DNA from: Nitrosospira sp.
GTDB taxonomy: Bacteria; Pseudomonadota; Gammaproteobacteria; Burkholderiales; Nitrosomonadaceae
NCBI GenBank assembly: GCA_013821425.1
Contig: JACDGV010000003.1
Span: forward strand, 62,001 to 126,000
DNA: 64,000 nt
Direction: 5' to 3'
In this document: positions 22,651 to 59,042 of the stretch, piece after piece
Layout of the letters: the number at the start of each line of letters is the position of its first letter
Numbering within the stretch: the first letter of the stretch is position 1
Translations under genes and position numbers: made by a program
The notes under the pieces: generated by a model
Seen by the model: the letters and a program-made list of their open reading frames with translations, nothing else
What the model was told of the DNA's origin: nothing
The model's database searches: none

Positions 22651-22666
22651 GTAGAAGACCGCAGAC

Positions 22667-27567: not shown

Positions 27568-30500
27568 ATGAACTTGTTTGGTAATTTAAAAAAAACAATA
27601 TTGTTACTCGGTTTGGGATTGACTCTTATTTTTGCTCTTTTGTTTTATAGAGAGGATCGATTTAAAGAATTATTCCAAATAGCAAAGCCGGATCATCTTT
27701 CGGTGCTTTACCTAAAGCTCCTGTTAAATATTAATCCTCGTGACGCTAGTTTACGTATTGAGCTTGCACGGCACTATATAAACCTGGGTGAACTGGAGGA
27801 GGCTCGTACTGCTCTGGCACCATTGTTAGTTAAAAATGGCCCAGCAGAATTAAGAGCTCGGCTAATGATATTAGAGCTCGACCTCAAGGATTATCATTCG
27901 ACAGCGGAAAATGACTCAAGCCGAAAGAAAAAGTTAGCTGATCTGCAAAACAGCATTATTGAGATCAGTAAAAATCAGATCCCGATAACTTTAATGCCGG
28001 AAATCATCAAACTCAGCCTGGAACTTGGCCAACCTGCTGTCGTTGCAGATCTATATTACCGTTGGTCCGCGATTATTGGTGATTCTTTCGAACGCCTGGA
28101 GAAATTACAAGAATCAGCACGATGGTATATCGCATCAGAGATGCAGAATCGGGCAGCAGAGATATATAATCAATGTTATGAGCTATCGAAGGATACAGTC
28201 CAGGCTCGGAAATTTGCATTTCTAACCCTTCAGGCGCTACGAGCGGCGGGTAACTATAAGCTCGCTCTCGAATATTTTCGTAACTACCAGCAGAAATTTC
28301 CAAAAGATCCTGAACTGCTTGATGAGGCAATCAGCATCTATCTGGCTGACAACAATCCTGTGAGCGCATATGAAACAGGCATCTCGCGGTTGGCATTTGA
28401 TCCAGATAATCCTGAACAAATCAGGAGGCAGGTTGATCGTGCCCTTGCAGTTGGGGAGGTTCAGGCAGCTTTGGCTTTAGCTCGGCGACTGGTCGAGATT
28501 GTTCCGGCTGATGAAGATGCCCATGAAAGCCTGGGACGTATTGCAGAATGGGCTTTAATGCCAGAGGTCGCATTAAAAGAATGGCTATGGCTGGGAAGAA
28601 ATAGAAAAGATGATGCGGCTATCCTGAATGCGATCAGGCTTTCAAAAGGGCTCTATTCTGTCGATACTGCCTTGGAAATGCTGGTACAACTATCAAATAA
28701 ACGAAAATTAACCAGCGAGGAACTGAATAGCTTATTTTCTGCATATGACGAGGCAGGCAGCATATCTGATCATGTTAATTTTCTGGAGTCCTATTTAAGG
28801 CGCTATCCTGATAATTCCCAGGTATGGGAAGCATTGGCTAAAACACGGGAAAATGCGGGGCAATTAACCGAGGCTATCGCCACATGGGAACTTATTGGAA
28901 TGCGTTTCAATCGCCTGCCAGAGGCTGTTACCCATCAAGCCAGATTGCTGTGGAAAAACGGCCAGTCTGAGAAGGCGCTTCTTACATTGCTATCAAATAA
29001 AAATAATGTAACAGAAAAGGAAACGCATTTTTGGGAGATTCTGAGCGAGCTTTCCTGGGAACTGAAACGACCCCAGCATGCATTAGCGGCTTATACCGTT
29101 CTTTGGGAATCAGGAAGCAACTATGCGCTTGTTGCAGAACGGTTGATTCAATTGACGCGGGATGCAGGGAGGGCAGAAGAGTCTATCGCAATCGGTGAAG
29201 AAGCTTATCATCGTTTTAATCAATCCCGCTGGTTATTGCTCGCCATGGATGTTGCTAATCAGGCAGGTTTGTCAGCTCAACTAAAACGGCTTTTGGAAAT
29301 GGCAATGAGTAATGAATCGCAATTTCTGGATTCCGAGATGTACTGGCTAATGCATGCTCAGTTGAATACTTATGAGAATAAACCTGAAATAGCTTTAAAG
29401 AATTATCAACAAGCTTTAAAAGTTAATCCTGCATCGACTACCGCTAAAGAAGGAGTTTTATGGAATCGCATTGGGCTGAACGACAGGCCATCGCTACAAT
29501 CATATATCAAACGCTGGCGTGCCGATGCATCGACAAACCCGTCGTTATGGGGTGCTTATGGGATGGCATTGTCGAAGGTAGGTCGGAACAAGGAAGCTTT
29601 GCCCTGGCTTGAGCGTAAATCGCGCGCCAATCCCGATGATTATCTATGGCTGCTTACCTATGCAGATGTCTTGAGTGGATCAGGACATGCAGATACAGCC
29701 TGGAATCTGCGTAGATATGTCTTGCTTAACTTGAGATCCCGCCTCAATGAAATTGGGAATACGCCACTTAAAAAGAAAAAGATTAAGGATTTGTTGCGCC
29801 CGGAGTACCTGGCTTTAGTTCGCAATATGGAAGGCGCAGATGTCGAGGTGTCGATATTAAAAAAATTCCTTGCCAAGGGATACGACGATCCCGCGGTGCA
29901 GGAATTGCTTGTCGCTGCTCACTTGTCTCAGGAAAATTATTCCATTGCTCGTTATTGGTTATTGCAAAAACATGTTGCCAGACAAGAAACCCCGTCCTGG
30001 CAGCGCCTTGCTTTAGCCTTGGCGGAAAATAATCTCGTTGCCGCTGAACATATTCTCGAAAATGAAAATGATAAGCTTTCTGAATTTAATAAAATGGAGA
30101 CGCTTAGGCGCCTGGATAGAAATGAAGAAGCCTTGTCATTGGCCTATAAACTTCTTGAATCACACAAGGGCCAGCCGGCGGTGCAAACGCACCTCTTCAA
30201 TTCCCGGGATGAACTGTTAGTGAAATCAAGCAGGCAAGCGATAGGAGGCATTGATTATAAGACTCTGGGAGATATAAATTTTCTGGAAAGTCGAGCGCGG
30301 TTTAACATGCCTTATCGACGTGCAGTCCTGGCAACGGAACTAAAGCATACTCGGCTGGATTCTTCTAATCCCGACATTATTCTGCCTGCAAATCATGAAG
30401 TGGATATAACGGCAGAATTTAAACATCCTCTGCGAGAAGGAGTGTTTCAGGTGAATCTGGGTGGCAATCTCAGGGAAGTCAATTCCCTTGTTCATGGGGC

Positions 30501-31152: not shown

Positions 31153-31402
31153 ATCTGGAGCAAGGTGGAATAAATAAACGAACGATGTCTGATGAATGAA
31201 TCATCGCCCTTGACATAAGACAGTCGTCGGAGCTGTGCAACTCCTAACCGTGCGTACTAAAACAGGTAAATCTCCCAGGCGGGTTTTAAGAGAAATCGAG
31301 TGGGACCGTAAAATCAACATTCCCGCACAACCCACGCGCAAGGGTTTTCAGAAGCTAATACAGCGCAATACAGCGCAACGTTTTGCCCCTTGCAAAGCTA
31401 GC

Positions 31403-31433
31403 AAAAGGCCCCCGGCTTTACCGGGGGCCTTTT
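31403..31433. terminator. Strong bidirectional terminator between pelB and the minus-strand gene
   Basis: AAAAGGCCCCCGG (31403-31415) and CCGGGGGCCTTTT (31421-31433) form a perfect 13-bp stem with a CTTTA loop, flanked by A4 and T4. It can end pelB transcription rightward and the gene at 31459-31845 leftward. A short direct repeat TACAGCGCAA (twice) lies just upstream near 31359. Confidence 0.88.
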
Positions 31434-31458
31434 AGATGCTCATCGAACAGAAAAGTGC

Positions 31459-31845
31459 TTATTCCGACTGAGTCTCGAAATAAGCAGCGGCGTCAAGCAG
31501 CGGTTGAGGATCGCCCCCCTGGCGTGCAACAATTTCCGCCGTCTCTTTATACTGGTCGGCCAGCGACCCCGCCTGCTGAGAGTACAACGGTTCCCGCGAC
31601 TTTAGTTTCCTGTCATTCTCCTTTCGTATCTTCTTTCTGTTCTCCTGGCTGACTTCTGGAAGCTTCTTGGCTTCCGGAAGCTTCTTGTTAGCCCTTTCCG
31701 TGGCCTGGCCGGGAAGTTGGGGGCTCTCAGCCATTGTTTGGGGTGCGGCATATGCCAGCGGCGAGGCTCCGGTACCGATGGCAACGGTCACGGCGACAGT
31801 CAGCAGGGCCAGGACGGGCTTGGCCCGGTCGATGTAGTATTTCAT
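31459..31845 (-). CDS. Small secreted protein paired with the deacetylase, unknown function
   Basis: A 128-residue protein with a clear signal peptide (cleavage after about residue 33, AYA) and a mature part rich in Lys, Glu and Arg (NKKLPEAKKLPEVSQENRKK), ending in a helical acidic stretch. A good ribosome site, AGAGGAT, precedes the ATG. It is 63 bp downstream of the Agd3-like deacetylase gene on the same strand, so the two are probably one transcript ending at 31403. A basic periplasmic or extracellular protein beside polymer-modifying enzymes could bind the polymer or an enzyme; no domain is recognised. Confidence 0.7.
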   Translation of the reverse strand: MKYYIDRAKPVLALLTVAVTVAIGTGASPLAYAAPQTMAESPQLPGQATERANKKLPEAKKLPEVSQENRKKIRKENDRKLKSREPLYSQQAGSLADQYKETAEIVARQGGDPQPLLDAAAYFETQSE

Positions 31846-31908
31846 TTTAAGATCCTCTTAATTTAAGCTTTCACCAAAAACATTCGGGAAGCAACCTGCT
31901 CTCCAGTG

Positions 31909-34056
31909 TCACTGAGCCAGCGCCCGGTTAACTATGTACGTCTTGGGCGTTGTGTTTACGTTGATCTCACGCATAAACTGGCCACCGTAAAAATCTCCCC
32001 CTGACACACCCGTAACAAGAAGATTGGGGACGGCCTGGTCTGCGGATAGCGTTACCTTATTGGTGGTGCGATTCCACATCGCCTGAATGGCCGCGGATTT
32101 AGTCTTGAAACGTTCTTCGGTAAGGTCGCCAATCCGATAATAGGGATAATTCTTGACCGGTAATTTGAACAGCCGCTCATATTCGGTGAAGGCAGCATTT
32201 AACCAATCAAATTGGAGTGTATTGCCACTCTCATCGTATTTGGCCAGGTTCGACTGGTGGAAAAAATGAGGCCACTTATTAAAGGTCAGCATGTGGCGCA
32301 ATGCGCCATCGGCTTCCGCCACGAGAATTTCCGAATAATTCCGGGGCAAGCAGATGGCTCCGGGTATCTGACAGGGATTTTGCCCTGCATTCTCAAATCT
32401 CCCGTGAAAGATATAGTTGTACTCATCTACCAACTGAGGCGGATTCGTCACGTTGTAGAAAATATTGGTGGGCCAGCGTGGAAGCAGAAGCCGATCATTT
32501 TGGCTGCCGTCTTCGTACTGGGTGACAAATTGTTCAAGGTTCTGCGCCCGTTGCGACGAGTCGGAGGCAAGATAGTCCACCCCCGCGTTGGCGGCGGCTT
32601 CCAGGAATAGCAGATTGGCGCCGCCCTCATCAAATGCCACGTCGTCAGCCTGAACATTGAACATCCCCGGATGGGAAGCAGGGTCATCGGTACATTTGCG
32701 ATCTTTTAGGCCGGAGTGATTGCCGCTTACGAGCACCCGGTTATTTTGACTTTTCTCAGGAAGACCCAGAAGCCCCCAGACAGTCCTGTTCTTCGTAATT
32801 TCCGCCTTGATAGCCGCGATCGTGGTAAAGGTCTCATAATCACAAGGGGCATCTACTGGAACCGGTGCCTTGTCCATGTCCGCATGCGTATAGGTGTGGT
32901 TGATGAAGCGGAAATGGGCTTTGTTGGCAACCACCGCTGCCACCAGGTCTTCCGTCAAGTTTGCAGTCAGTGTCGCTGCTAGCGGATCTACCACTGCCCC
33001 GGAACCATTGAATGCAAAATCCAGCATGAAAGTACCGGCTGTCGGATGTGCGGAACGAAAGGCAGTCTGCTTGCTCACCGCATTGTTGATATCAGCGCTG
33101 TTCAACCGGTAGGTATCAACAGGATGATCCTTCTTAAGGTCGGGATCCCATAGGCCGTTAGCAAGAAACAAATCGTCCAGATGAGCAGCCATGTGGATAC
33201 GGCGCCCGCCGACGAATACGCCTTGCGTCACCCAGTTGATGAACTCGTAGGCCAGGACCTGTGAATGGACAAGGAATGAGGCATGAGTAATCGTCGAGAT
33301 CATCACTTCTCGTACCGGCGTTGCCTGGGAAGGCGCCATGAATCGTACGATCGATACCAGCGCTTCGCCATTCTCGGTTTTCAGCAGCGGCTCAACGCTT
33401 GGTTTGGATCCGTCCCGCAGGACAAGAGCATCGTTTCGTGGATTGGCTGCGAAGGCAAAGTCCGTAATGGGAAGGGTATTACCCTGGTTCACATACTCAA
33501 AAACCTCCTTGCTGAGAGCGGTAGGCACTGTCCATTGCCCATCGTAGTTGGTTGAACTGGACGAATAGACAAGGCCATAATCCAGGTAGACTCCATAAGG
33601 AGGGTTCGGATCCCAATAAGTGCCCGGCCATCCCGACAGAACCGCCTGGCGCACGCCAAAGTCTTTTTGGTAATCGTGCAGGATGTCCCATTCCGCAGGC
33701 GTGAAGTTTGGAACCAGATCGGAGTCCGTCAGCATGATGCCATTATAGTTGCCTACACAACCCGCCTCCTCGGCTTTGCAGGCGGCTCCCGCCGAGGTGG
33801 AGGCAAGCATCGCAGCCGTTAAATCCTGTGTACCGGCATTCAACACATCGTACCCCACTCCCATTTCCTCAAGCACAGGTTTAATGTAGGTTAAACCCAG
33901 ATCTTCCGCTACATCCCCCGTCGCGATAACCAATATCCTGAGTTTAACGGCATTATCGGCAAACGCAGGTGCCGGCCCAATCATTAAAGCGAGCCAAGAG
34001 AACCATAGGGTCACCGAGGCAAGCAGTGGCCGTTTCATGTTCAAGTTCTTTTTCAT
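31909..34056 (-). CDS. Agd3-like secreted polysaccharide deacetylase (CE18-like)
   Basis: A 715-residue secreted protein: signal peptide (cleavage after AFA, near residue 34), an N-terminal domain starting with a Rossmann-like segment (ILVIATGDVAEDLGLTYI), and a deacetylase domain carrying the metal motifs H292-L-D294-D295 and N386-H387-T-Y-T-H391-A-D. This layout and the Asp plus His-x3-His set resemble Agd3, the founding CE18 enzyme that deacetylates galactosaminogalactan in Aspergillus. The start at 34056 has GGAGA upstream and gives a normal signal peptide. It lies inside the pel locus, divergent from the GH114 gene. Inferred role: deacetylating Pel or a related GalNAc polymer outside the cell, in addition to the PelA deacetylase. 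G+C content is higher than in pelB. Confidence 0.78.
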   Translation of the reverse strand: MKKNLNMKRPLLASVTLWFSWLALMIGPAPAFADNAVKLRILVIATGDVAEDLGLTYIKPVLEEMGVGYDVLNAGTQDLTAAMLASTSAGAACKAEEAGCVGNYNGIMLTDSDLVPNFTPAEWDILHDYQKDFGVRQAVLSGWPGTYWDPNPPYGVYLDYGLVYSSSSTNYDGQWTVPTALSKEVFEYVNQGNTLPITDFAFAANPRNDALVLRDGSKPSVEPLLKTENGEALVSIVRFMAPSQATPVREVMISTITHASFLVHSQVLAYEFINWVTQGVFVGGRRIHMAAHLDDLFLANGLWDPDLKKDHPVDTYRLNSADINNAVSKQTAFRSAHPTAGTFMLDFAFNGSGAVVDPLAATLTANLTEDLVAAVVANKAHFRFINHTYTHADMDKAPVPVDAPCDYETFTTIAAIKAEITKNRTVWGLLGLPEKSQNNRVLVSGNHSGLKDRKCTDDPASHPGMFNVQADDVAFDEGGANLLFLEAAANAGVDYLASDSSQRAQNLEQFVTQYEDGSQNDRLLLPRWPTNIFYNVTNPPQLVDEYNYIFHGRFENAGQNPCQIPGAICLPRNYSEILVAEADGALRHMLTFNKWPHFFHQSNLAKYDESGNTLQFDWLNAAFTEYERLFKLPVKNYPYYRIGDLTEERFKTKSAAIQAMWNRTTNKVTLSADQAVPNLLVTGVSGGDFYGGQFMREINVNTTPKTYIVNRALAQ

Positions 34057-34623
34057 GGATAGAATCTCCGTTAGCAAACAAAAGCAAAAAAGGCTCTGAA
34101 TTCTTACATACCGCTTGTACAGCATAGTTCAACCCAGACAGAGTTTCTCGAAAGGTCGGGTCGGAGCGAGCTTTTTTTCAAAATGGTTAAATGGCGTATC
34201 ATTTTCCTGCTTTTTCTTCCTCGATCTCCTGGTTTTCGTCGGGGTGTAAACTGCTTACACTTGCTCTTACTTGGTCTATTCAGCTTTTCAAACCGGTGCC
34301 CATACTCAACATTAACGCACTGATTCGTAAAGATAATCTAGCATGACCTAGCGCGTCCTGCAAGCTATACTGGCAGTGGGCACAGGAAGAAGCAGTGGGC
34401 ACGGAAGAACCCGAAGTCCTCAGAATTAAAATGTCGCGATAGAATTGAATAAAACCGGGAACGAGATGGATTCAGGTTTGAGGGCGGTTTTGTTAGTTAT
34501 TGGATCGTCAGGACCCAGGGGTGCCTAATGATGAATCAGACACTTTTGGTTTTTTGAACCGGGGACGGTCACCCATCACTAACCCCCTTCATGTCCGTAA
34601 ATTCCTTTATTGAGGAAAATATC
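34057..34623. promoter_or_regulatory. Divergent promoter region, deacetylase / GH114
   Basis: About 570 bp between two divergent genes of the pel locus, so it must hold both promoters. A tandem direct repeat GCAGTGGGCAC(A)GGAAGAA occupies 34372-34408 (19- and 18-bp copies). No sure promoter hexamers were found and no gene is supported. Confidence 0.45.
34372..34408. repeat. Tandem 18/19-bp direct repeat
   Basis: GCAGTGGGCACAGGAAGAA at 34372-34390 is followed at once by the same sequence lacking one A (34391-34408). It lies midway between the two divergent starts and could be a pair of regulator sites or a slippage duplication. Confidence 0.8.
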
Positions 34624-36027
34624 ATGTTGAAATCCCGCGTCACTTCTAATACTTTTTTAATCAAACCCATAGTTTGGTTAATAAAAAAAATTCCAATTTA
34701 CAAAATGCATTTGTTCAAACAGGTAAAAAGCTTGATTCAGCTACTTTTAGGCATGATGCTGTTAATGGCAAATGTCAGCTTCGCTGAGTTCATGTTTCCC
34801 TCCAACCTGTTAAATAAAGGAGGTTCATCGACGCCGCAGCCCCTGGAAGTTCTTGCTGTAAAAGATCAACAGGACTCGGACGATAATTTGGACAGCTATA
34901 TAGAATTCGATACTGATTCGCGGGGATATTCAGGAACCTTCAGGTTCAATCTCCCAGCTAAACCTGAAAAAACGATCCACGAGTTAATCTTCCATGCTAA
35001 TTATCGCGGTCCGGAAAAATCCAATCAGAAATGGGAGTTTCAATTACTGAATGTTGAAACCGGTAAATGGTTTTATGTCGCAGACAATAGCGATGTGGTA
35101 GATCGGGCCTGGAGCCCTATCATTGCAACAATAAAAGATCCCGCTCAATTTATTGACGGGCGCAACCAAATAACTTTGCGCTACATCACAAGAAGTACAG
35201 GAAATAATAGCCAGCTTGACTTCGTGGCGCTTGAAGTAAAAGGTTCCGAATCCAATTCGCCCACCTCCCGGTCGGATCGTGATTCAGGAGCGATACCACT
35301 CTCAGCGGTTGTGAGTACCGGAAACCGCTGGCGACCGGCTCCCGGGTTAAGTTGGCAAATTCAATATACTGAGACGATAGATACGTCCTTGAATGTCGAT
35401 GTTTATAATCTTGATCTGTTTGATACCAGTGCAGAGGTCATCTCTGCAATACGATCCAAGGGCAAGCATGTCATTTGTTATTTTAGTGCGGGTGCCTATG
35501 AAAACTGGCGGCCGGACAGGGTGGCATTTCCAGGATCTGTTCTCGGCCGGTATCTGGACGGCTGGGCGGGCGAGCGATGGCTGGATATACGACGATTGGA
35601 TATTCTGATTCCTATCATGCGGGCTCGTCTGGAGCAGGCTGCGAATAAAGGCTGCAATGGCGTTGATCCTGACAATGTCGACGGCTACAGTAACAATACG
35701 GGATTTGCTCTCAGCTACGACGATCAGCTAGCCTATAACAAAGCCCTTGCTGAGGCGGCACATGATCTTGGACTCGCTATAGGTTTGAAAAATAATCTTG
35801 ATCAAATCAGGGATCTTGTGAATCACTTCGACTTTGCTGTGAATGAACAATGCTTTCAATATGAAGAATGCGACACGCTTAAACCATTTGTTGATGCGGG
35901 GAAAGCCGTTTTCGGTATTGAATACCATCTTTCAAATCGGAGCTTTTGCCCGCAAGCCAATGCGATGAATTTCGACTTTCTGAAGAAAATTTTGTCGTTG
36001 GATGCGCGAAGACGACCCTGCAGATAG
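34624..36027 (+). CDS. GH114 endo-alpha-1,4-polygalactosaminidase-like protein
   Basis: A 467-residue exported protein: long N-terminal region with a hydrophobic signal segment ending ANVSFA, a beta-sandwich-like domain (about residues 60-210) that may bind carbohydrate, then a GH114 TIM barrel. GH114 hallmarks are ICYFSAGAYENWRPD, the catalytic-Asp strand GVDPDNVDGY, GLKNN and NEQCFQYEEC with the probable catalytic Glu. Known members such as fungal Ega3 cut partly deacetylated galactosaminogalactan. GAGG at 34612-34615 supports the start at 34624. Standing between the Agd3-like gene and pelC, it may trim or release Pel; its domain is separate from the GH166-type domain of PelA. Confidence 0.85.
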   Translation: MLKSRVTSNTFLIKPIVWLIKKIPIYKMHLFKQVKSLIQLLLGMMLLMANVSFAEFMFPSNLLNKGGSSTPQPLEVLAVKDQQDSDDNLDSYIEFDTDSRGYSGTFRFNLPAKPEKTIHELIFHANYRGPEKSNQKWEFQLLNVETGKWFYVADNSDVVDRAWSPIIATIKDPAQFIDGRNQITLRYITRSTGNNSQLDFVALEVKGSESNSPTSRSDRDSGAIPLSAVVSTGNRWRPAPGLSWQIQYTETIDTSLNVDVYNLDLFDTSAEVISAIRSKGKHVICYFSAGAYENWRPDRVAFPGSVLGRYLDGWAGERWLDIRRLDILIPIMRARLEQAANKGCNGVDPDNVDGYSNNTGFALSYDDQLAYNKALAEAAHDLGLAIGLKNNLDQIRDLVNHFDFAVNEQCFQYEECDTLKPFVDAGKAVFGIEYHLSNRSFCPQANAMNFDFLKKILSLDARRRPCR

Positions 36028-36116
36028 TCCAACAGCGTAACCGCCAAGCTAACCTGCTAACCGGAATTCGCAACATCCCTCGTTGAGTCCCGAGTCCTGG
36101 TTTGCAGAATTGGTGC

Positions 36117-36304: not shown

Positions 36305-36346
36305 GCAGGGTTAGATGAGTGCGCGCGTCGCACTCCGCTGATGGCC

Positions 36347-36790
36347 TCATGAATCCCAGGTCAGGCTGGCAAATTTCCAGCTTAATTGATCTGCCCCCTC
36401 CAGGGAAGCCCTCATGCTCTGCAAGAGCTCCGGTAACTGTGCCACGCAGTTTCCCGAGATTGAGGTATTCACCTCGATCGAGATACTCTTTGCCATAAAA
36501 TCCAAATCATCCACCTCATTCAGATAGAGAATAGGCATGCTGTAAGGCAGGCCGTCATGGACGAAAACGCATTGATATAGGTGTGTGCGGATGAGTACTG
36601 CGCAAAGATGCGGACCCGGGCGAACCAAGACACCCTTGAAATATGCCCGAGCCTGACCTATACCTTCATTAGTGGTGATGAAAAAAAGAGTGACTGCACT
36701 CCAAGATCGCAAGGGTGTTGAAGAGACAGGCGCATTACGAAAAAGCTCATCAAGGCTAGACAGCGCCCCCATAACGCCTGTGTACAACAT
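36347..36790 (-). CDS. Uncertain minus-strand open frame, hypothetical protein
   Basis: A frame of about 147 codons from an ATG at 36790, opposite to the pel genes and filling the gap between the IS3 remnant and pelC. The translation is evenly mixed, with a reasonable hydrophobic/polar alternation (CVFVHDGLPYSMPILYL), no signal peptide and no known domain. No ribosome site is visible. It may be a real orphan, cargo of the vanished insertion element, or chance. Confidence 0.3.
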   Translation of the reverse strand: MLYTGVMGALSSLDELFRNAPVSSTPLRSWSAVTLFFITTNEGIGQARAYFKGVLVRPGPHLCAVLIRTHLYQCVFVHDGLPYSMPILYLNEVDDLDFMAKSISIEVNTSISGNCVAQLPELLQSMRASLEGADQLSWKFASLTWDS

Positions 36791-36860
36791 ATCTTGTAAG
36801 AATAGGGTGCTGTGTATAACAAGCAATATTCAATTAATTAATAACCAAAAAGGTTTGATT

Positions 36861-37430
36861 ATGTTGATCACCCGTGAAAAAAACCTGCGATTTGCTCATA
36901 TAAAGCTTAAATTGTTCTTCGTTATTATTTTGTTTGAATTGTTGGCCGCATGTTCGGTCATTGACGTACAGAAAGGTGCTTCTCTTTCTTCTTCCGAACG
37001 TTGGATGATTCTACCCTTTCAGAATTACTCACAGACTCCGCGGGCAGATGAACAAGTGGAAGAACTGCTGGCTACATTGTTCAGGATTCGCGGTGTCGCA
37101 GATATAGAAATGTACGAGCAGCAAGATGAGGAAAAGGGTGAATTGCTTGAATTCCACGACCGCAAACGTCAGGAAAAAGCCTTGGCGCTAGCTATTAAAC
37201 GGAACGTTTCCTACGTAGTGACTGGAAGCGTTGATGAATGGCAATACAAACTCGGTGTTGGTGGCGAACCGGCTGTCGGCCTCACAATGCGCGTCATAGA
37301 GATTCCCTCCGGAAAAGTTGTTTGGTCCGCGAGTGGGGCACGGACGGGCTGGAGCACAGGATCGCTCAGTGGTACGGCGCAAAAGTTGCTTAAGGATTTG
37401 GTTTCGAAGATTGAAATCGCTCGATTGTGA
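36861..37430 (+). CDS. pelC: Pel lipoprotein PelC
   Basis: A 189-residue lipoprotein with a signal peptide ending in the lipobox LLAAC and a mature part with RWMILPFQNYSQTPRA, YVVTGSVDEWQYK and a final amphipathic helix, as in PelC. PelC forms a dodecameric ring at the periplasmic face of the outer membrane that guides Pel toward PelB. The ATG at 36861, preceded by AAAGG, is chosen because a longer frame upstream would bury the signal peptide. It opens a tight run pelC-D-E-F; pelD starts 28 bp later. Confidence 0.88.
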   Translation: MLITREKNLRFAHIKLKLFFVIILFELLAACSVIDVQKGASLSSSERWMILPFQNYSQTPRADEQVEELLATLFRIRGVADIEMYEQQDEEKGELLEFHDRKRQEKALALAIKRNVSYVVTGSVDEWQYKLGVGGEPAVGLTMRVIEIPSGKVVWSASGARTGWSTGSLSGTAQKLLKDLVSKIEIARL

Positions 37431-37458
37431 TTTCCGACAAAAAAAATTGAAAACATTA

Positions 37459-38847
37459 ATGCTGCTAGAGAAGATAGAAAGAATCAGATGGATAGAGTCA
37501 GTCGTTATCGCATTTTCACTTCCAATAATTGGTTATGCAATTGATCCATCTGATCCTTTTTATATAAATTACAGGTTTCCCTGGCTGATGTTTGCTCCTC
37601 TGTTAGCTAGTCTTCGATGTGGGTTTGTATGCGGAATTACTTCCGCCACATTGCTTATCACCATGGTTTCAGGTGGTTTCTTCCTGGGATGGTCTCAAGT
37701 TCCTTTTTTTCCCGAAGAAATGATAATCGGATTGTTGCTATTCACAGTGATTTCGGCTGAATTTTATGAATCCTGGAATCGTAAGATAAAACTTCTGGAT
37801 ACTAAATATAACCATTTTAAGGTAAGAATGGATGAGTTTACGCGCTCGTACCACCTTATCAAATACTCCCATCACCAGTTGGAACAACATTTGGCAAGCC
37901 GGGCGAAAAGCTTGCGTTCAACATTACATGATCTTGAAAAGAACATTTTGTCGCTGGTAGGCAATAAGGGTGAACCCCTGGCGGGTATTGGTGAGAATAT
38001 CCTCAAAATCCTTAGTCGCTATGCGAGTGTACAGATGGCCGGCATCTACGCGGTAAATAAGCAACGAAGCATTAGTGGGAAGCCTGTGGCATGTTTGGGA
38101 CAGCCACCCGTTTTGTTGGCCTCGGATCCTGTAATAGTAGAAGCTCTGAAAACGGGAGATGTTGCCAGTATTGAAGTGGAAAAAAACGATGTTATGGCCG
38201 CTGCTGGAGCACTGGTCGCCATCCCGTTAGTAGATGTTCATCAGAAAATCTGGGGGGTGGTTGTCGTAAACGAGATGCCATTATTTGCATTGCAAGAAAG
38301 TACCATGGATTTTCTCGCTGTTTTGGGTGGAAAAATGGGTGATCTTATTAAACGGCGCGCAGAGGCATATAGTAATGACAATGACAATGACAATGACAAT
38401 GACAATGACAATGACGATGGAAAAGCTGTGGAAAGCAGGTTAAGCCGAATTCTGAGGGAGGTTAACTACTTAAAGTCATCTGCTGTGGCGATTGTCATAA
38501 TTATCAACTCTGAAGAGCTTCAGAGGCAATTCCTTGCTAGATTTCAGGCCGAGTTGAGAGGAGTGGATGAAATTCTTATTTTTAAAGATAAGTGGGATCG
38601 CCAGGTCTTTTTGATACTACTACCTCATACGGACGAAAATGGCGCCAGTGAATTCTTGAGCCGCATTGAATTATCGACATCAACGGCGGAAACGGCCTGT
38701 CATGGGTTGGAGAAAATGTCCTATAACTTTCGTGATGGCAATATTGGCGTGTGTATGTGGATCCTCGATAGTAAAACTTCTCGAGAAAAACTTTTATTGG
38801 AAATAGACCAATTTCGTAACAACGAATTCAGTTGCAGCAGTTTGTAA
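37459..38847 (+). CDS. pelD: c-di-GMP receptor PelD
   Basis: A 462-residue inner-membrane protein: four hydrophobic segments (about residues 13-105), a coiled linker, a GAF domain (about 180-300) and a degenerate GGDEF domain (about 325-455). The I-site residues match P. aeruginosa PelD in both type and number: R367-G-V-D370 and R402. Binding of c-di-GMP there switches on Pel synthesis by PelF, PelG and PelE. No GGDEF signature remains, so it is a receptor and not a cyclase. The ATG at 37459 gives the family length. Between the GAF and GGDEF domains lies an (Asn-Asp)7 tract encoded by a hexanucleotide repeat. Confidence 0.92.
   Translation: MLLEKIERIRWIESVVIAFSLPIIGYAIDPSDPFYINYRFPWLMFAPLLASLRCGFVCGITSATLLITMVSGGFFLGWSQVPFFPEEMIIGLLLFTVISAEFYESWNRKIKLLDTKYNHFKVRMDEFTRSYHLIKYSHHQLEQHLASRAKSLRSTLHDLEKNILSLVGNKGEPLAGIGENILKILSRYASVQMAGIYAVNKQRSISGKPVACLGQPPVLLASDPVIVEALKTGDVASIEVEKNDVMAAAGALVAIPLVDVHQKIWGVVVVNEMPLFALQESTMDFLAVLGGKMGDLIKRRAEAYSNDNDNDNDNDNDNDDGKAVESRLSRILREVNYLKSSAVAIVIIINSEELQRQFLARFQAELRGVDEILIFKDKWDRQVFLILLPHTDENGASEFLSRIELSTSTAETACHGLEKMSYNFRDGNIGVCMWILDSKTSREKLLLEIDQFRNNEFSCSSL
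38374..38415 (+). repeat. Seven tandem AATGAC hexamers inside pelD
   Basis: Seven exact copies of AATGAC encode Asn-Asp seven times, followed by Asp-Gly, at the junction between the GAF and degenerate GGDEF domains. Copy-number change would lengthen or shorten the linker by two residues per unit without a frameshift. Confidence 0.95.
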
Positions 38848-38867
38848 GATCGAATAAGACCGAATTC

Positions 38868-39911
38868 ATGGATATCAAAATTATGGGAAGAAAAATGCGG
38901 GTATTTCATATCCTGGGTAAGTTAATTCTAGTTGCTCTGGCCTTGGGATTGGAAATATATGGTTTGCAGTTAATTTTCAATGACTCCATATCTGGACAGA
39001 ATTTAATAACAGCGCTGTTTGCTCATTTCATTGCGAGCGCTGTCGCCGCCTGTGTTTTCCCCGGAATCATGGTGCCTGATCACAATGAGGCGAAGTTGAA
39101 AATTCGTGCTCTTTTCTTTGCGATCATTTTTTACTTACCTGTGCTGGGGCTGGTAGGGCTGATTTTAGCGATACCATTTGTAGTAGGCCGTTCCTCGAAA
39201 TCGAAACGCCTGAATGCTTTCATGAATATAAATAAAATCCGCGATCTTCCCCCTGGGACTACCGTTATGGGGGGTCAGCCAGTTAACTTGCATAGCCTGT
39301 ACGATTTATATGGATCCCGAAATCCTGACAGACGGCTGCAAGCAGTGTATGCAACCTTAAAACTGAAGGACAGGGACGCGATTCCCTTGTTGCGTATGGC
39401 GCTGGGCGATCCGGTTGATGACATCAGATTACTTGCTTACGCTTTATTAGACCGTAAAGAGTACAGACTGAGCAAGCGCATACAGAAATCCAAGCAGGAT
39501 CTGGATAAAATGGAAAACTTGAGAAGAAAACAACTATATCGGCAGATAGCTAACGACTACTGGGAGTTGGCACATCTGGGTCTCGTTCAAGGAGAGGCAA
39601 AAAAACATGTCCTCAGCATGGCCTACGAATACATTGAACGGGGCCTTGAATATTCTCCCCAGGATTCAGGGCTTCTCTTCCAGTATGCTCAAATATTGCT
39701 GAGATTGGGAGAATATCAACAGGCATTTGAAAAATTTAAACAGGCGGAGACTCTCGGAATTGAATATGTAAGTTTGCTGACCTACTATGCGGAAATAGCT
39801 TTTTATAGCCGCCGGTATCAAGAAGTGAAGCAATTAATGGCGGTGATAGAACTTCCCGCAGCCTATCCCGTTTTGACCACGGCGGCAGGATTTTGGCGAA
39901 AAGATATTTGA
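38868..39911 (+). CDS. pelE: Pel synthesis protein PelE
   Basis: A PelE of about 347 residues with two N-terminal membrane helices (within residues 10-105) and a cytosolic C-terminal TPR-like helical region (DSGLLFQYAQILLRLGEYQQ). PelE joins PelD, PelF and PelG in the inner-membrane synthase complex. Three starts are possible: 38832 (overlapping pelD), 38868 and 38895 (GGAAG close upstream); 38868 is a compromise near the P. aeruginosa length of 329. Its stop overlaps the pelF start as TGATG, so translation is coupled. Confidence 0.83.
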   Translation: MDIKIMGRKMRVFHILGKLILVALALGLEIYGLQLIFNDSISGQNLITALFAHFIASAVAACVFPGIMVPDHNEAKLKIRALFFAIIFYLPVLGLVGLILAIPFVVGRSSKSKRLNAFMNINKIRDLPPGTTVMGGQPVNLHSLYDLYGSRNPDRRLQAVYATLKLKDRDAIPLLRMALGDPVDDIRLLAYALLDRKEYRLSKRIQKSKQDLDKMENLRRKQLYRQIANDYWELAHLGLVQGEAKKHVLSMAYEYIERGLEYSPQDSGLLFQYAQILLRLGEYQQAFEKFKQAETLGIEYVSLLTYYAEIAFYSRRYQEVKQLMAVIELPAAYPVLTTAAGFWRKDI

Positions 39912-41422
39912 TGCAGCAGCAACAGAAATACGCCGATATCACACTCTTGTTAGAAGGCACCTATCCTTTTATCAGGGGGGGAGTTTCCGGATGGGTGCAC
40001 CAGATATTGGAAGGGTTGCCACAGCACACATTTTCTTTAATTTTTCTGGGATCAAGGAAGAGTGATTATGATGAACCAAAATATGGCTTACCCGACAACG
40101 TCGTTCATTTGGAATGCCATTATTTATGGGACGATTTTTTCACATCTAAACCGAGGGCCTGTAAAGGTAATGACGAATATATTCTGGACTCAGGGCAACT
40201 CCACGATTGGTTCCGAAATCCATGCTCAGATTTCGATGAAGTTGCCCTAAAGAAACTTTTGGTGTCCTTGGGGCAGCCGTCTGGCTTCACCGCGGAGGAG
40301 TTTTTTTTTAGCGATGCCGCCTGGCGGCATATCTGTGAATATTACAATAAATATAATGCGGGAAATTCATTCATACATTATCTATGGGCGATCAAAGCCA
40401 TGCATGGCCCGTTGTTTATGCTTTCCAGCATTGCCCATCAGTATCCTGTGGCGACAGGAGCATTCCATACCGTGTCCACTGGTTTTGCGGGTTTTCTTGG
40501 AGTATTGCTGCATTACAGAACCGGCCGGCCACTCATTCTAACGGAACATGGCATCTACACTAAAGAAAGAAAAATAGACTTGCAATCCCTTTTCATTAAA
40601 GAGCATCGTGATTCATTAAGTGATGCGCTTTATATGGGAATGCAATATCAGGAATTATTATGGATAAGATATTTCGAGTCGCTAGGCCGGCTAATTTATA
40701 AGGCTTCAAATCCTATTATAAGTCTTTACGAAACCAATAGAAGGCGCCAAATCACTGATGGCGCGGATCGTGACCGAACACAAGTGATTCCAAACGGCAT
40801 GGAAATGGAGCGTTTTCTTCCTCTGCGTGCGCAACGGCCAGGAAAAATTCCCCTGGTGGTTGGATTGGTAGGAAGGATAGTGCCGATAAAGGATATTAAA
40901 ACTTTTATTCGAGCCATGCGCACGGTTGTGATTCAACTGCCTCAAGCTGAAGGCTGGCTGATCGGTCCACAAGAAGAGGATAAGGAGTATTTGCAGGAAT
41001 GTAGAAGTCTGATTCACGAGCTAGGGTTGGACAGAAAAGTACGGTTTTTAGGGTTCCAACAAATTAGCGACATGCTCCCTCGTCTGGGATTGCTGGTATT
41101 GACATCAATCAGCGAAGCCTTCCCGTTGGTGATACTTGAAGCTTTCGCAAGCGGGCTGCCAGTCGTGACTACCGACGTGGGCGCCTGTCGAGAAATCATC
41201 GAAGGTAACAGCGACGAGGATCGTGCTTTGGGGTGTGCAGGTATCGTAACACCCATAGCAGACCCAGAAGCAACTGCTGCGGCTGTGATTGCGTTGCTGA
41301 CTGATGAAAGTCGTTGGCATGAAGCACAGAAAGCTGGTATTGAACGCGTTGAAACCTATTATACGCAGGCTGGAATGCTTGACGATTACGAAAAGATTTA
41401 TAGCCGGGCGCTTACCCAATGA
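39911..41422 (+). CDS. pelF: Pel glycosyltransferase PelF
   Basis: A 503-residue cytosolic GT4 glycosyltransferase (P. aeruginosa PelF: 507). ITLLLEGTYPFIRGGVSGWV at the N-terminus is a strong PelF signature, and the C-terminal Rossmann domain carries GLVGRIVPIKDIKTF and the E-X7-E motif in SEAFPLVILEAF. It polymerises Pel from UDP-GalNAc. The ATG at 39911 overlaps the pelE stop; an ATG at 39893 would add six residues. Confidence 0.92.
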   Translation: MQQQQKYADITLLLEGTYPFIRGGVSGWVHQILEGLPQHTFSLIFLGSRKSDYDEPKYGLPDNVVHLECHYLWDDFFTSKPRACKGNDEYILDSGQLHDWFRNPCSDFDEVALKKLLVSLGQPSGFTAEEFFFSDAAWRHICEYYNKYNAGNSFIHYLWAIKAMHGPLFMLSSIAHQYPVATGAFHTVSTGFAGFLGVLLHYRTGRPLILTEHGIYTKERKIDLQSLFIKEHRDSLSDALYMGMQYQELLWIRYFESLGRLIYKASNPIISLYETNRRRQITDGADRDRTQVIPNGMEMERFLPLRAQRPGKIPLVVGLVGRIVPIKDIKTFIRAMRTVVIQLPQAEGWLIGPQEEDKEYLQECRSLIHELGLDRKVRFLGFQQISDMLPRLGLLVLTSISEAFPLVILEAFASGLPVVTTDVGACREIIEGNSDEDRALGCAGIVTPIADPEATAAAVIALLTDESRWHEAQKAGIERVETYYTQAGMLDDYEKIYSRALTQ

Positions 41423-41654
41423 ATCATTACTAACTGTCATGTACAGCCGGTATCAAGCACCATTTTTTTTTGTTGCTTCTGACGTCTCATTTTTTATGGA
41501 ACGGCAGCGATCAATTCTGACAGACGTTGCGCTCCTTTCAATTTCCCCCAGAGTTTTGCGGCGATGAAGATCATGATCGGCTGCTCTCGCGTGAAACGCA
41601 GCCTCGTGTTTTTGCGGTGCTGTCATGCAAACTCCTGAGTAACTCCACACAATA
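41423..41654. other. Gap between pelF and pelG with possible insertion remnant
   Basis: 232 bp interrupt the otherwise tight pelC-F run. On the minus strand a frame reads TREQPIMIFIAAKLWGKL followed by KGAQRLSELIAAVP and a stop, which has the look of a protein C-terminus and may be left from a mobile element; family not identified. More G/C rich than pelF and pelG. Confidence 0.35.
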
Positions 41655-43022
41655 ATGGCTGGCATTGGGTTCAGACTGCGGGAGCTGACAAAAAATGATA
41701 CGTTGTCAGGACTACTGCTGGCTTATGGTTTTGCCGGTGTTATCGGTTCCGGGCCGTGGGTGTTGTCGATTATCGGTATTCTGCTGATTGGCATCATTAA
41801 CACAGAGAACTCAAACACACCTTATTATGTTGGGCAGTTTCAGATATCCGTAACTTATCTAATGGCAACTTCTTTAATCCTCACCAGCCCTTTGCAGCTG
41901 ATGATCACACGCTTTATTGCTGACAGGGTGTATGAAAAACACGAAGAACAAGTTTTACCGAATCTGACCGGCGCGATTTTTATTGTAGTAACTATCAGTG
42001 GAACGCTTGCGGGTCTTTGTTTGATTTACCTGTTTACCGGATCGGTGTTGTATCGTTTATTGATGTTGAGCGGTCTGGTAATCCTTTCTACTATCTGGAT
42101 TGTAGTAATCGTTTTATCGGGACTGAAGGCGTACCAAGAGGTTTTATTAGCTTTCCTGCTAGGTTACGGCATAACAGTATGGGCTGCCATGGAGTTGGGC
42201 GCGTACGGACTGGAAGGCCTGCTTTCTGGTTTTGTTGTGGGTCATGCGCTTTTATTATTTGTGCTCCTGGTTGTGGTTTTTCGCGCCTATTCGAGTGATA
42301 AATTGATTGCCTTTGATTTTTTACGAAGAAGTCAAATATTCCCAAGCCTTGCAATTACTGGCCTTCTTTATAACGTGGCTATTTGGGCTGACAAATTTAT
42401 TTTCTGGTTCAATCCTCTTACCAGCATTGAGATTATTTCACCCTTGAGGGGGTCGCCGATTTATGACCTTCCAATATTTCTGGCCTATTTATCAATCATA
42501 CCCGGCATGGCGGTATTTTTATTGCGCGTGGAGACGGATTTTGCAGAGCAGTATACGAAGTTTTATGGTGCTATCAACCGTGGAGCTCCCTTAAAGCTCA
42601 TTTTAGAAATCTATGAAGAAATGATGGTAACTATTCGACGGGGATTTATCGAGATCTTTAAGGTACAGGGAATGACGATCGTGATATTACTGGCAGTAGG
42701 GACCAAATTACTGGCATGGGTAGGAATATCTCCTTTATATAGAGTACTGTTCAATATTGACCTGGTTGCGGTGGGCGTTCAAGTATTATTGCTGGCTGTT
42801 CTCAATGTATTGTTTTACTTCGATTATCGTAAAGATGCTTTGTATCTCTGTTTGCTGTGCGCCACCTCGAACATTGTATTCACCCTGATGAGTCACTATC
42901 TGGGGCCTGCATTTTATGGCTATGGTTTTGCCTTGTCAGTGGTATTGACTACATTGGTTGGTATGGCCGTCGTCGCAAAACGACTTAACCGGCTGGTTTA
43001 CGCAACATTCATGTTACGTTAA
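41655..43022 (+). CDS. pelG: Pel inner-membrane transporter PelG
   Basis: A 455-residue polytopic membrane protein (P. aeruginosa PelG: 456) with about twelve hydrophobic segments and the N-terminal signature MAGIGFRLRELTKNDTLSG. PelG carries the polymer made by PelF across the inner membrane under control of PelD. It follows pelF after 232 bp and precedes pelA. Confidence 0.92.
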   Translation: MAGIGFRLRELTKNDTLSGLLLAYGFAGVIGSGPWVLSIIGILLIGIINTENSNTPYYVGQFQISVTYLMATSLILTSPLQLMITRFIADRVYEKHEEQVLPNLTGAIFIVVTISGTLAGLCLIYLFTGSVLYRLLMLSGLVILSTIWIVVIVLSGLKAYQEVLLAFLLGYGITVWAAMELGAYGLEGLLSGFVVGHALLLFVLLVVVFRAYSSDKLIAFDFLRRSQIFPSLAITGLLYNVAIWADKFIFWFNPLTSIEIISPLRGSPIYDLPIFLAYLSIIPGMAVFLLRVETDFAEQYTKFYGAINRGAPLKLILEIYEEMMVTIRRGFIEIFKVQGMTIVILLAVGTKLLAWVGISPLYRVLFNIDLVAVGVQVLLLAVLNVLFYFDYRKDALYLCLLCATSNIVFTLMSHYLGPAFYGYGFALSVVLTTLVGMAVVAKRLNRLVYATFMLR

Positions 43023-43158
43023 CAATTCTGCTGTACATAACCTATAACAAGACAGCAAGCCTGCAATAATGCAGTCGCAGCCAAGCGGGAGCGTTGGGGG
43101 GGAGTCGGGAAATGCCGTGATAGGCCGGGGCTGGACGATCATAAATGGAGTCACAGTA

Positions 43159-45969
43159 GTGAATTATCAAATGACTTTTTTGAAGCGCTGCGCTTTTTTA
43201 AGGCTTATCCAGAGCATGCTTTTATCCTCTATTTGCTTGCCCGTGTACGGGGATTCCAGTACTGCCTTCTTCTATGGCCGACCTGCCCCGGTGGATTTAC
43301 TTTCTCATTTTACGCAAGTCGTAGTAGAACCCGAAAATGTAGATAACCTGGACTATCTTCATGAAAAGGGAACCAAGGTATTTGCCTATATAAGTATCGG
43401 GGAGATCAATGCGACACGATCCTGGTATCCAGAAATCCCGAAAAATTGGTTTATGGGCAGCAATAAAGAATGGGGAAGCCATGTCATTGACCTAACTCAG
43501 CAAGGATGGCACGACTATCTCATTGATAAATATTTGTCCCGGCTATGGGAAGAAGGCTATCGCGGTTTTTTTTTGGATGGACTGGATAGTTATCAAAGGT
43601 TTGTCCTGGAACCCCATGACCGGTTGATTCAGGAAAAAGCATTGTCCGATCTGATTAAACGCATACATCAGCATTTTCCAGGAGTCGAGCTTATATTTAA
43701 CCGGGGGTTTGAGATCGTGCCGGAAGTTGGTCAATACGCGGTTGCGTTAGCTGGTGAATCGCTATTCCAACGCTGGGATCCGCCCAGCCGAGAATATACA
43801 AAGGTTGTGGAGCCTGATCGTAACTGGTTGTTGGAGAAGTTAAGGCAGGTACGAGATCAATATGGATTGCAAATAATCGTTATTGACTACGTTGACCCCA
43901 GGCAGAAGGAACTTGCGCGAGCCACCGCCAAACGGATATCTGACCTGGGCTTCACGCCTTGGGTGGCAAATCCGGGATTGGATACTCTTGGTACTGGCGC
44001 GCTAGAAGTTTTCCCCCGACGAGTTTTAGCACTTTATGATGGACAGGACCATCCGGAAGGGCTGCAACAGACGGATGTTCATAAATTACTGGCCATGCCA
44101 TTGGAATATCTGGGTTATACGCTCGATTATTTGGATGTAAATCTGGGACTACCAGGGAATTTATTGACAGGACAGTATGCCGGAATCGTTACCTGGTTCA
44201 ACAACGATGCTTTACCCAGGCCGATGATTTATAGAGAGTGGCTGTTGCGACAGATGGATTCGGGGGTAAAAGTTGCTATTTTTGGGAATTTAGGTTTCAA
44301 AGCTGATAATGCTTTTTTGCAACGTCTAGGGGTCAAATTAAGTCAGTCAGAATCCTTGGAGGGGCCAGTCAACATTGGGCTGAGCGATAAAATGATTGGT
44401 TATGAGGCCCAGCCTAACCCCACGACGCGGGGGCTCTCAGCCTGGCAACCGCTGGAAAACGGTATTGAAAATGAAAACGGTATTGAAAATTATCTAAGCT
44501 TGACCGATGAAACGGAAGCATCACTAGTCGCCGTGTTTTCCGGGCATTGGGGTGGGGCCGCCTTGCATCCCTACGTGATAGAGGCTGGTTACGAGGGACG
44601 TCAACGATGGATCGTCAACCCGTTTGAGTTCTTATCCACAGCTCTTAACCTATCAGGAATACCTGTACCTGATGTCACCACTGAGAATGGCCGACGTTTA
44701 TTGCTGGTACAGGTTGATGGTGATGGGGCTGGGAATAAGGCAGAAATACCCGGAACGCCGCTGGCGATAAAAGTCATTCAGGATCAATTTTTGCAAAACT
44801 TTAAACTGCCTTCAACGGTTTCCATAATTGAAGGAGAAACAGCGAATGGCGGTTCGCCAGACACCTTAACTGAGACTGAGAAGGTGGCGCGAGATATTTT
44901 CAAACTTAAGAATGTTGAAATAGCAAGTCATTCCTATAGTCATCCTTCAGCGTGGTTCCAAAAGAATAATATTGATGCTGCGGGTGATGATTATCGCCTT
45001 GCTGTTGAAGGATATGGATTTGACTTAAACCGGGAAATCGCCGGTTCCGTAGAATATATTAATAAAACTCTGGCACCTGAGGGGAAGCATGCGCGTGTTT
45101 TCTTATGGACTGGTGATGGGCTGGCAGATGAAGAGGCTCTAGTTCTGACGCGTTCGCTTGGATTGGAGAATATGAATGGCGGTGGCGCGACGATATCCAA
45201 TGATGAACAAACGATGACACGCGTGCCTCCCCTCGGTTATGTAATTAATGGACAGCTCCAGGTATATGCCCCCATCGCAAGCGACCATGTTTATACAAAT
45301 AGTTGGCAGGGTCCTTATTACGGATTTAATCGGGTCATCGAAACCCTGCGACTCACTGATAGTCCGCTTCGTCTGAAACCAATGCATATTCGTTATCACT
45401 TTTATTCAGGAAGCAAAACCGCATCCATCAATGCCCTAAAATCTGTGTATCGGTGGAGTATCAAACAGGAATATAGGGCTATTTGGGTTAGTGAGTACGG
45501 TCAGAAGGTAAATGAATTCCAGAACATTACCCTGTCTCGCCGTATGGATGGGGCTTGGGATATTAGAGGACTGGGTTCGTTACGTACATTACGCCTGCCA
45601 ATGTCGGCAGGATGGCCTGACTTAGAAAAATCCGAGGGGGTTGTAGGAGTTCGTGATGCAAATCAAGGGCGATATGTGCATCTTTTCCCCAATCATGGTC
45701 AAGTTCTATTGTATACAACACCTGATCCTCCTTTAACCACCTACCTATTACACAGCAATGGGGAGATAGAGGAATGGCAGAAGACTGCAGGGGGTGTCAG
45801 TTTGCAAATGCATGCTCATATGCCACTGGAAATGGTCATGGCATCCCCAGAACGAAAGTGCCATGTCAATTGGTCGGGTGGCAGGCTGGATGGACAACAG
45901 CAGAGCCAAGGCTGGAAATTCGTTTTTCCAGTGGCGAATCCCGGAAATATCAATCTCGTTTGTTATTAA
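43159..45969 (+). CDS. pelA: PelA, periplasmic Pel hydrolase/deacetylase
   Basis: A 936-residue PelA (P. aeruginosa: 948). After a signal segment (LRLIQSMLLSSICLPVYG) come a GH166-type hydrolase barrel (about residues 30-280; GES with E200 in the place of the catalytic Glu218), a Rossmann-like middle domain, and a polysaccharide deacetylase with D520-G-D522 and H591-S-Y-S-H595, matching D528/D530 and H600/H604 of P. aeruginosa. It deacetylates nascent Pel and can cut it. The GTG at 43159 is preferred because GGAG (43147-43150) is 8 bases upstream; an ATG at 43069 has no ribosome site. pelA is last in the cluster instead of first. Confidence 0.92.
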   Translation: MNYQMTFLKRCAFLRLIQSMLLSSICLPVYGDSSTAFFYGRPAPVDLLSHFTQVVVEPENVDNLDYLHEKGTKVFAYISIGEINATRSWYPEIPKNWFMGSNKEWGSHVIDLTQQGWHDYLIDKYLSRLWEEGYRGFFLDGLDSYQRFVLEPHDRLIQEKALSDLIKRIHQHFPGVELIFNRGFEIVPEVGQYAVALAGESLFQRWDPPSREYTKVVEPDRNWLLEKLRQVRDQYGLQIIVIDYVDPRQKELARATAKRISDLGFTPWVANPGLDTLGTGALEVFPRRVLALYDGQDHPEGLQQTDVHKLLAMPLEYLGYTLDYLDVNLGLPGNLLTGQYAGIVTWFNNDALPRPMIYREWLLRQMDSGVKVAIFGNLGFKADNAFLQRLGVKLSQSESLEGPVNIGLSDKMIGYEAQPNPTTRGLSAWQPLENGIENENGIENYLSLTDETEASLVAVFSGHWGGAALHPYVIEAGYEGRQRWIVNPFEFLSTALNLSGIPVPDVTTENGRRLLLVQVDGDGAGNKAEIPGTPLAIKVIQDQFLQNFKLPSTVSIIEGETANGGSPDTLTETEKVARDIFKLKNVEIASHSYSHPSAWFQKNNIDAAGDDYRLAVEGYGFDLNREIAGSVEYINKTLAPEGKHARVFLWTGDGLADEEALVLTRSLGLENMNGGGATISNDEQTMTRVPPLGYVINGQLQVYAPIASDHVYTNSWQGPYYGFNRVIETLRLTDSPLRLKPMHIRYHFYSGSKTASINALKSVYRWSIKQEYRAIWVSEYGQKVNEFQNITLSRRMDGAWDIRGLGSLRTLRLPMSAGWPDLEKSEGVVGVRDANQGRYVHLFPNHGQVLLYTTPDPPLTTYLLHSNGEIEEWQKTAGGVSLQMHAHMPLEMVMASPERKCHVNWSGGRLDGQQQSQGWKFVFPVANPGNINLVCY

Positions 45970-46585: not shown

Positions 46586-46629
46586 ACGATTCCTTGATTT
46601 TTGAGAAAAATAGTCTATTTATTAAATAA

Positions 46630-46658: not shown

Positions 46659-46696
46659 GGCCGAGCGAATTCCGCAGCCATTCGAGGAGAACTAAA

Positions 46697-59029: not shown

Positions 59030-59042
59030 GCAAAGGCAAAGT

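Follow-up and report, generated by a model that had tools for sequence, protein, structure and literature searches.

Deacetylation renders both Pel and galactosaminogalactan (GAG) cationic and adhesive, and each polymer has been described with a deacetylase of its own. What, then, are a deacetylase and a hydrolase of the GAG type doing inside a bacterial pel locus? The locus that raises this question lies in a 64,000-nucleotide stretch of a Nitrosospira sp. contig (JACDGV010000003.1, positions 62,001 to 126,000; the window) from a genome of 3.14 Mb (G000). The genus is represented here by 23 species genomes, and 38 other relatives were compared. The window locus is called pel-II below, and another pel locus of the same genome pel-I. 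Open reading frames and family matches place and order the seven pel genes and the CE18-like, small and GH114 genes of pel-II as an earlier note on this DNA had said:

27568..31152, plus strand: pelB-II, outer-membrane export barrel with TPR domain, 1194 aa (PF24604, 294 bits, E 1.9e-87)
31459..31845, minus strand: small exported protein of no known family, 128 aa, directly 3' of the CE18 gene
31909..34125, minus strand: CE18 (Agd3-type) carbohydrate deacetylase with a CBM87-like N-terminal region, 738 aa (PF25115; 6nwz)
34126..34590, no strand: CE18-GH114 intergenic region of 465 bp, from its position a probable shared regulatory region
34591..36027, plus strand: GH114 endo-alpha-1,4-galactosaminidase-type hydrolase, 478 aa (PF03537 and PF14741, the GH114-associated N-terminal domain)
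within 36672..37430, plus strand: pelC-II (PDB PelC 9h80, E 8.8e-40)
37318..38847, plus strand: pelD-II, c-di-GMP receptor type (PF16963; 4dmz, E 4.7e-26)
38832..39911, plus strand: pelE-II (position, weak TPR matches and our own comparisons; 28.7% identity to its positional pel-I counterpart)
39893..41422, plus strand: pelF-II, glycosyltransferase (NCBIfam NF038011, PelF, 686 bits)
41655..43022, plus strand: pelG-II, inner-membrane exporter (PF16933, 501 bits)
43069..45969, plus strand: pelA-II, GH166 hydrolase and CE21 deacetylase domains, 966 aa (9cgy, E 3.8e-184, residues 63-965)

The set pelA to pelG is complete, pelE being the weakest call. The true start of pelC-II is likely near 36861, judging from an LAAC motif and the length of homologues, and would yield a lipoprotein of about 189 aa. 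PelD-II has RGVD in place of the RGLD of the solved PelD. An AATGAC tandem repeat inside pelD (38374-38419) encodes a run of Asn-Asp; as its unit length is divisible by three, the frame would survive slippage. The canonical Pseudomonas operon pelABCDEFG, as the consulted part of PMC12022489 presents it, has the same seven genes and a PelA composed of GH166 and CE21. By comparison, the single-operon order is broken in the window: pelB stands apart, the minus-strand CE18-small pair and GH114 are inserted, and pelCDEFG follows with pelA last.

With the inserted pair on the minus strand, a detail absent from the earlier note, CE18 is head to head with GH114, and the pair and pelB point toward each other. 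Being antisense to pel in the window, the two share no transcript with it. The translations of CE18, the small protein and GH114 alike begin with a signal-peptide-like stretch, as judged by eye. Across the intergenic regions, the 465-bp one included, matches to sigma-54 and sigma-70 promoter patterns do not exceed those in shuffled sequence. A transposase or IS remnant was considered in the GH114-pelC gap (ORF 36347-36826, minus strand) and rejected: the frame has no Pfam match and the repeats are uninformative. Other genes of the window include, upstream of pelB, those for a histidine kinase and a sigma-54 response regulator (20601-24031; here too sigma-54 pattern matches are not above shuffles) and, immediately ahead of pelB, one for an erythromycin-esterase-family protein (25843-27201). 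A PEP-CTERM protein (46601-48622) is encoded shortly 3' of pelA, followed by a Kazal-domain protein (48789-49580), and a multidomain DNA ligase of the LigD type (bacterial end joining) lies at 58974-61571.

The CE18 gene product matches PF25115 with 58 bits (cut-off 27.6); its CBM87 match, at 20.6 bits, falls below that family's cut-off of 27.6. An AlphaFold2 model (mean pLDDT 79) finds Agd3 (6nwz), whose fold comprises CBM87, CE and beta-rich C-terminal domains, as the top Foldseek match in the PDB (E 1.2e-33, TM 0.64 by query length, rmsd 6.2), with human NDST1 as runner-up (1.3e-17). Agd3 is a metal-dependent GAG deacetylase, and the roles of its residues, namely an Asp pair acting as base and metal ligand, HxxxH, a base-coordinating Arg and an acid His, are described in the part of Bamford et al. 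(2020; PMC7229062) examined. Alignment to 6nwz finds all four motifs in the window protein: CM1 DD, CM2 HxxxH, CM3 Arg and CM4 His. The corresponding residues, D317, D318, H410, H414, R550 and H623, are invariant in 18/18 genus rows and in 20/20 rows of a wider alignment that includes Methylococcales and Acidobacteria; where Agd3 has the highly conserved CM4 Met beside its acid His, the window enzyme has Phe. One G001 copy has a run of N across its 3' part and was left alone. In its predicted structure, the window CE18 is thus an Agd3-fold enzyme with intact catalytic residues, which would be exported and would act on a Pel-type polymer.

The GH114 hydrolase is equally close to its fungal counterpart, with 286 bits to PF03537 and an E value of 2.6e-59 to Ega3 (6oj1). 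Its motifs GVDPDNVDGY and VNEQC are identical to those of Ega3, so that both acidic catalytic motifs (Asp, Glu) of the family's TIM barrel are kept; these residues, and the specificity of Ega3 for deacetylated stretches, are given in the consulted text of PMC12054363.

The third inserted gene has no Pfam or NCBIfam match and no PDB relative (one chain at E 1.2), and its position follows CE18. Among loci L067-L094 and the genus loci (L095 left out), a gene of this small-protein family lies directly 3' of 30/36 distinct CE18 genes, with a gap of at most 67 bp or with overlapping ORF calls; two of the six CE18 genes that lack it run off the contig. In Nitrosospira briensis Nsp8 the two are naturally fused (L071:9992-12454), the small protein forming the C-terminus of CE18 without a signal peptide of its own. 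In a model of this fusion, block pLDDT is ~35-75 where the enzyme would meet the small domain. None of the distant CE18 loci (L096-L108; G609, G619, G759) gave a match to the small protein. Gene order and fusion are good evidence that the small protein is functionally tied to CE18 in the nitrifier-methanotroph clade, where it would act as a partner of the enzyme.

The window locus is a second, accessory Pel operon. The first, pel-I, which the earlier note did not have, lies on contig 41 of the window genome (L037:3350-14241) in the order pelA-pelB-pelD-pelE-pelF-pelG. In G000, G018 and G020, whose pel-I loci were viewed whole, pelB and pelD overlap, so there is no pelC between them. PelG is present in 23/23 genus genomes and 0/38 other relatives, and five genomes (G000, G001, G011, G016 and G022) have two PelG-bearing loci: pel-I, which starts with pelA, and pel-II, in which pelA follows pelG. 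The PelF proteins of the two loci share 49% identity. The pel-II order is permuted in G011 (pelDEFGA, pelB, small-CE18, GH114, in a stretch that starts within pelD), and G022 carries a tandem copy of the CE18-small pair. A pel duplication, locus gain and moved pelA have been reported for Nitrosospira multiformis (Bundalovic-Torma et al., 2020; PMC7112194, in the text examined).

CE18 is found at all five pel-II loci of the genus, the G016 locus ending at a contig end. GH114 with its associated domain occurs in 5/23 genus genomes, exactly those with pel-II. The naive probability of this match, 3e-5, is weakened by the pel-I tree, which suggests few independent events: G001, G016 and G022 are joined, and G000 and G011 sit at an unresolved fork (the comparison of labels on this tree covered labelled rows only and was not used as a test). 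In three of the five pel-II genomes (G001, G016, G022) GH114 lies away from pel-II. By our own tally from locus listings, 10/13 loci that hold both CE18 and GH114 have the two head to head: the window, G011, Nitrosomonas communis mag.23, Nm44, Nm34 and five acidobacterial loci, including L101, where the ORF calls of CE18 and GH114 overlap. They are together in another arrangement in JL21, KLAP95 and G609. Three of the acidobacterial loci with CE18 and GH114 were tested, and each has a glycosyltransferase of the PelF type (154-163 bits; NCBIfam cut-off 100); PelG at acidobacterial CE18 loci was checked with our own profiles only.

Linkage of CE18 to pel extends beyond the genus. One pattern scan of the species-genome collection yielded 42 CE18 loci, 12 of which have strong pel matches (E below 1e-60): Nitrosovibrio tenuis Nv1 and Nitrosospira Nsp14 and Nsp2; Nitrosomonas KLAP95, JL21, communis mag.23, Nm34 and Nm44; two Methylococcales; and, from distant Burkholderiales, HGW-Betaproteobacteria-3 (HGW-Beta3) and a Hydrogenophaga. 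The other 30 have no strong pel match in the flank examined, some being cut by contig ends. Several linked loci are co-directional: in Methylococcales G454, a single strand carries CE18, the small gene, pelBCDEFG and pelA, a further short piece of CE18 lying 3' of pelA, and in Nitrosomonas JL21 and KLAP95 CE18, the small gene, pelCDEFG and pelA run in the same direction. In G609, CE18, a split PelA, pelF and pelG share a strand, and GH114 closes the locus at its far end; CE18 and pelG are ~20 kb apart in G619, and the G759 contig is too short to judge linkage. In Nm34 and Nm44, full-length pelA is also immediately preceded by an additional, separately encoded PelA hydrolase domain (L087:4526-8221, L092:3175-7089), apparently a recent partial duplication.

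At the level of genomes, CE18 keeps company with PelA. In a sample of 398 genomes drawn evenly from the phylum, 33 have PelA and two have CE18, both among the 33; in an evenly drawn class sample of 369 genomes, 22 have PelA and all four CE18 genomes are among them. Leaving out the window genome, the class sample gives 3/3 against 21/368 (hypergeometric p 1.6e-4, resting on three genomes) and the phylum sample 1/1 (p 0.08, resting on one genome). PelG accompanies PelA in 39/40 PelA-bearing genomes tested, the exception being G603. Within the genus, CE18 is present in 20/23 genomes and in 0/38 other relatives; the genomes without it are G002 (80% complete, and without a detected pel-I PelA), G018 and G020. 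The functional link proposed in the earlier note hinged on co-conservation of the CE18-like and GH114 genes with pel in at least some relative. Such co-conservation is present in several lineages, with CE18 at pel in Nitrosospira/Nitrosovibrio, Nitrosomonas, Methylococcales and two Burkholderiales.

The link of CE18, the small protein and GH114 to a Pel-type polymer is thus well supported, if indirectly, and the three are best seen as pel accessory genes. With a probability of roughly 0.7, the pel-II polymer is finished by a processing set, CE18 with its small partner and GH114, held in common with fungal GAG.

A different division of labor is suggested by the state of PelA itself. PelA deacetylases belong to CE21, and their active-site residues are called conserved in the consulted part of PMC12022489; a Gram-positive enzyme is placed in CE26 (PMC13254593, in the part consulted). 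PelA-II keeps the GH166 Asp and Glu. In its CE21 domain (MT1 motif QVDGD) the Asp pair, HxxxH and the acid His are kept, and the first, base-activating His is Gln. The earlier note had counted two deacetylases and two hydrolase domains at the locus; the count is right, and this His is the one catalytic residue not kept. Gln occupies the position in 10/10 full-length pel-II PelAs. As a sign of a dead deacetylase the substitution was dropped: although His is present in 27/28 CE18-free rows of the phylum sample, it is missing from 5/14 in the class sample, and a change that also occurs in CE18-free PelAs is not diagnostic. The phylum rows represent 28 of the 31 CE18-free PelA genomes, with G070, G101 and G410 left out.

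PelA of pel-I has gone further. Instead of the usual His-x-Asp-Gly-Asp it reads Glu-x-Arg-Gly-Asp, with the catalytic base Asp changed to Arg in 22/22 copies; comparison with the solved PelA confirms the Arg in the window genome, and in three copies the acid His is Asn. By contrast, all 45 other CE21-bearing PelA rows examined keep the base Asp (28 from the phylum sample, 17 from the class sample, where no row came from G555 and no CE21 part from G603 or G662). In Nitrosomonas JL21 and KLAP95 and in HGW-Beta3, PelA is a hydrolase with no CE21 at all; each has CE18 at pel, and their genomes hold no other PelA match. (The Hydrogenophaga assembly with a pel-linked CE18 has no PelA match.) In a tree of the hydrolase domain, JL21 and KLAP95 fall within the pel-II clade; HGW-Beta3, whose CE18 is also separate in the CE18 tree, falls outside it, although its branch is long and the fork weak, and from this separation CE21 was probably lost, or never gained, twice.

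These cases make it likely that CE18 replaced CE21 in JL21, KLAP95 and HGW-Beta3, and possible that it did so for pel-I. Whether CE18 has taken over as the main Pel deacetylase, with PelA decaying to a hydrolase only, is another matter. The three CE21-less relatives, their probable two origins and the Arg of pel-I PelA point that way, but G609, G619 and G759 keep an intact CE21 alongside CE18, which excludes replacement as a general rule. A strict rule is further opposed by G018 and G020, in which a defective pel-I PelA is found without CE18, and by G662, which has PelG and a hydrolase-only PelA without CE18 (and a CE4-type deacetylase match within ~4 kb); the His-to-Gln change of pel-II adds nothing diagnostic. 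A takeover is therefore held only tentatively. Somewhat more doubtful is the proposal that nitrifier and methanotroph Pel exchanged CE21 for a two-part CE18 unit, in which the small protein, of a new family, would dock the enzyme to the Pel machinery and free copies would serve pel-I in trans. The same genomes bear on the earlier note's suggestion of a polymer modified twice: it would fit G609, G619 and G759, where an intact CE21 and CE18 occur together, but the three relatives without CE21 deny it the standing of a general rule.

It could also be that the pel-II polymer is chemically different, a GAG-like chain of, e.g., GalNAc and galactose, and has CE18 and GH114 for that reason. In Nitrosomonas communis mag.23 and Nm34 a nucleotide-sugar epimerase-family gene lies beside pelB; GlmU-like and GlmS-like genes, a possible amino-sugar supply unit, follow another CE18-small pair in Nm34 (L094:5267-8531); and the PelF proteins of pel-II and pel-I have diverged to the extent given above. 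However, the epimerase and GlmS would suit plain GalNAc equally well, PelF-II is scored as a PelF equivalog at 686 bits amid a full pel set, and no other synthase was seen within the pel-II locus. A GAG-like composition is accordingly unlikely.

CE18 also occurs away from pel. Among 25 CE18 places in the genus, six are at pel-II and 19 elsewhere, and the neighbors of these free copies vary between genomes. When ten neighbors from four free loci were searched for families, a GT4 glycosyltransferase turned up near three of the loci and none at the fourth: at L054 and L067, in two related Nitrosospira genomes, GT4 (L054:4697-6007, L067:14240-15514) is ~3 kb or less from the CE18-small pair, and at L090 it is ~9 kb away. 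Such GT4 genes might mark another polymer for CE18. In the CE18 tree, from which six short fragments and L108 were left out and in which near-identical rows were merged, most free copies form two groups inside a clade that also contains pel-linked ones, the base of the clade being unresolved; L013, the CE18 of the window itself, is labeled free there solely owing to a short flanking stretch. That CE18 and GH114 target a foreign or unrelated polymer, such as fungal GAG or cell wall, and sit at pel by chance or hitch-hiking, would suit the surplus of free pairs with varied neighbors but is quite unlikely given pel linkage in separate lineages, the confinement of CE18 to PelA-bearing genomes in both samples, the grouping of free copies with pel-linked ones, the GT4 genes at three of four free loci and the little obvious use of a foraging enzyme to chemolithotrophs.

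If the pel-II polymer is indeed finished by a GAG-type processing set, its path can be sketched. The chain, for which membership of the Pel family predicts alpha-1,4-linked GalNAc, would be synthesized and moved by PelF, PelG, PelD and PelE; the PelA hydrolase and deacetylase would work in the periplasm, and PelB and PelC would export the polymer, each of these roles being assigned by homology. The exported CE18, with its small exported partner, would then strip further acetyl groups, and GH114 would cleave the GalN-rich stretches left by CE18. The charge, length and release of the polymer could thereby be adjusted separately from its synthesis.

The Aspergillus GAG cluster (agd3, ega3, sph3, gtb3 and, presumably, uge3) is alike, in the descriptions consulted, in having agd3 and ega3 as neighbors, two galactosaminidases and one CE18 deacetylase; it differs in that the window polymer would be made by PelF/PelG-type machinery with a PelA of GH166 and CE21. 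At pel-II, PelF/PelG and GH166 stand in place of the fungal Gtb3-type synthase and GH135 enzyme Sph3. Parts of the bacterial arrangement are already in print. Within the examined text of Bamford et al. (2020), bacterial homologues of Agd3 in Gram-negative loci consistently occur together with GH114 and with Pel outer-membrane genes, and the loci described resemble pel-II in having CE18, frequently a nearby GH114, a glycosyltransferase, Pel-like outer-membrane genes and a three-domain enzyme. What sets pel-II apart from those loci is a pel operon that is complete and second in its genome, a small exported partner that is conserved, the recurrence of the arrangement among nitrifiers and methanotrophs, and some relatives' lack of CE21. 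The account of N. multiformis by Bundalovic-Torma et al. (2020) shares with the window the genus, two pel copies, a rearranged pelA and a gained locus; the text examined does not name CE18, GH114 or the state of PelA. We recognized no published report of the small partner, or of CE21 decay with CE18, in a search that covered text outside figures and supplements and in which the small protein had no name to go by.

The hosts of these loci are ammonia and methane oxidizers living in biofilms in soils and treatment plants, and to our knowledge little is known of their matrix polymers. A fungal-type CE18 at pel, with CE21 missing from the PelA of some relatives, amounts to a natural experiment on which deacetylation Pel needs, and where; the small partner adds a new candidate to the factors of galactosaminan deacetylation.
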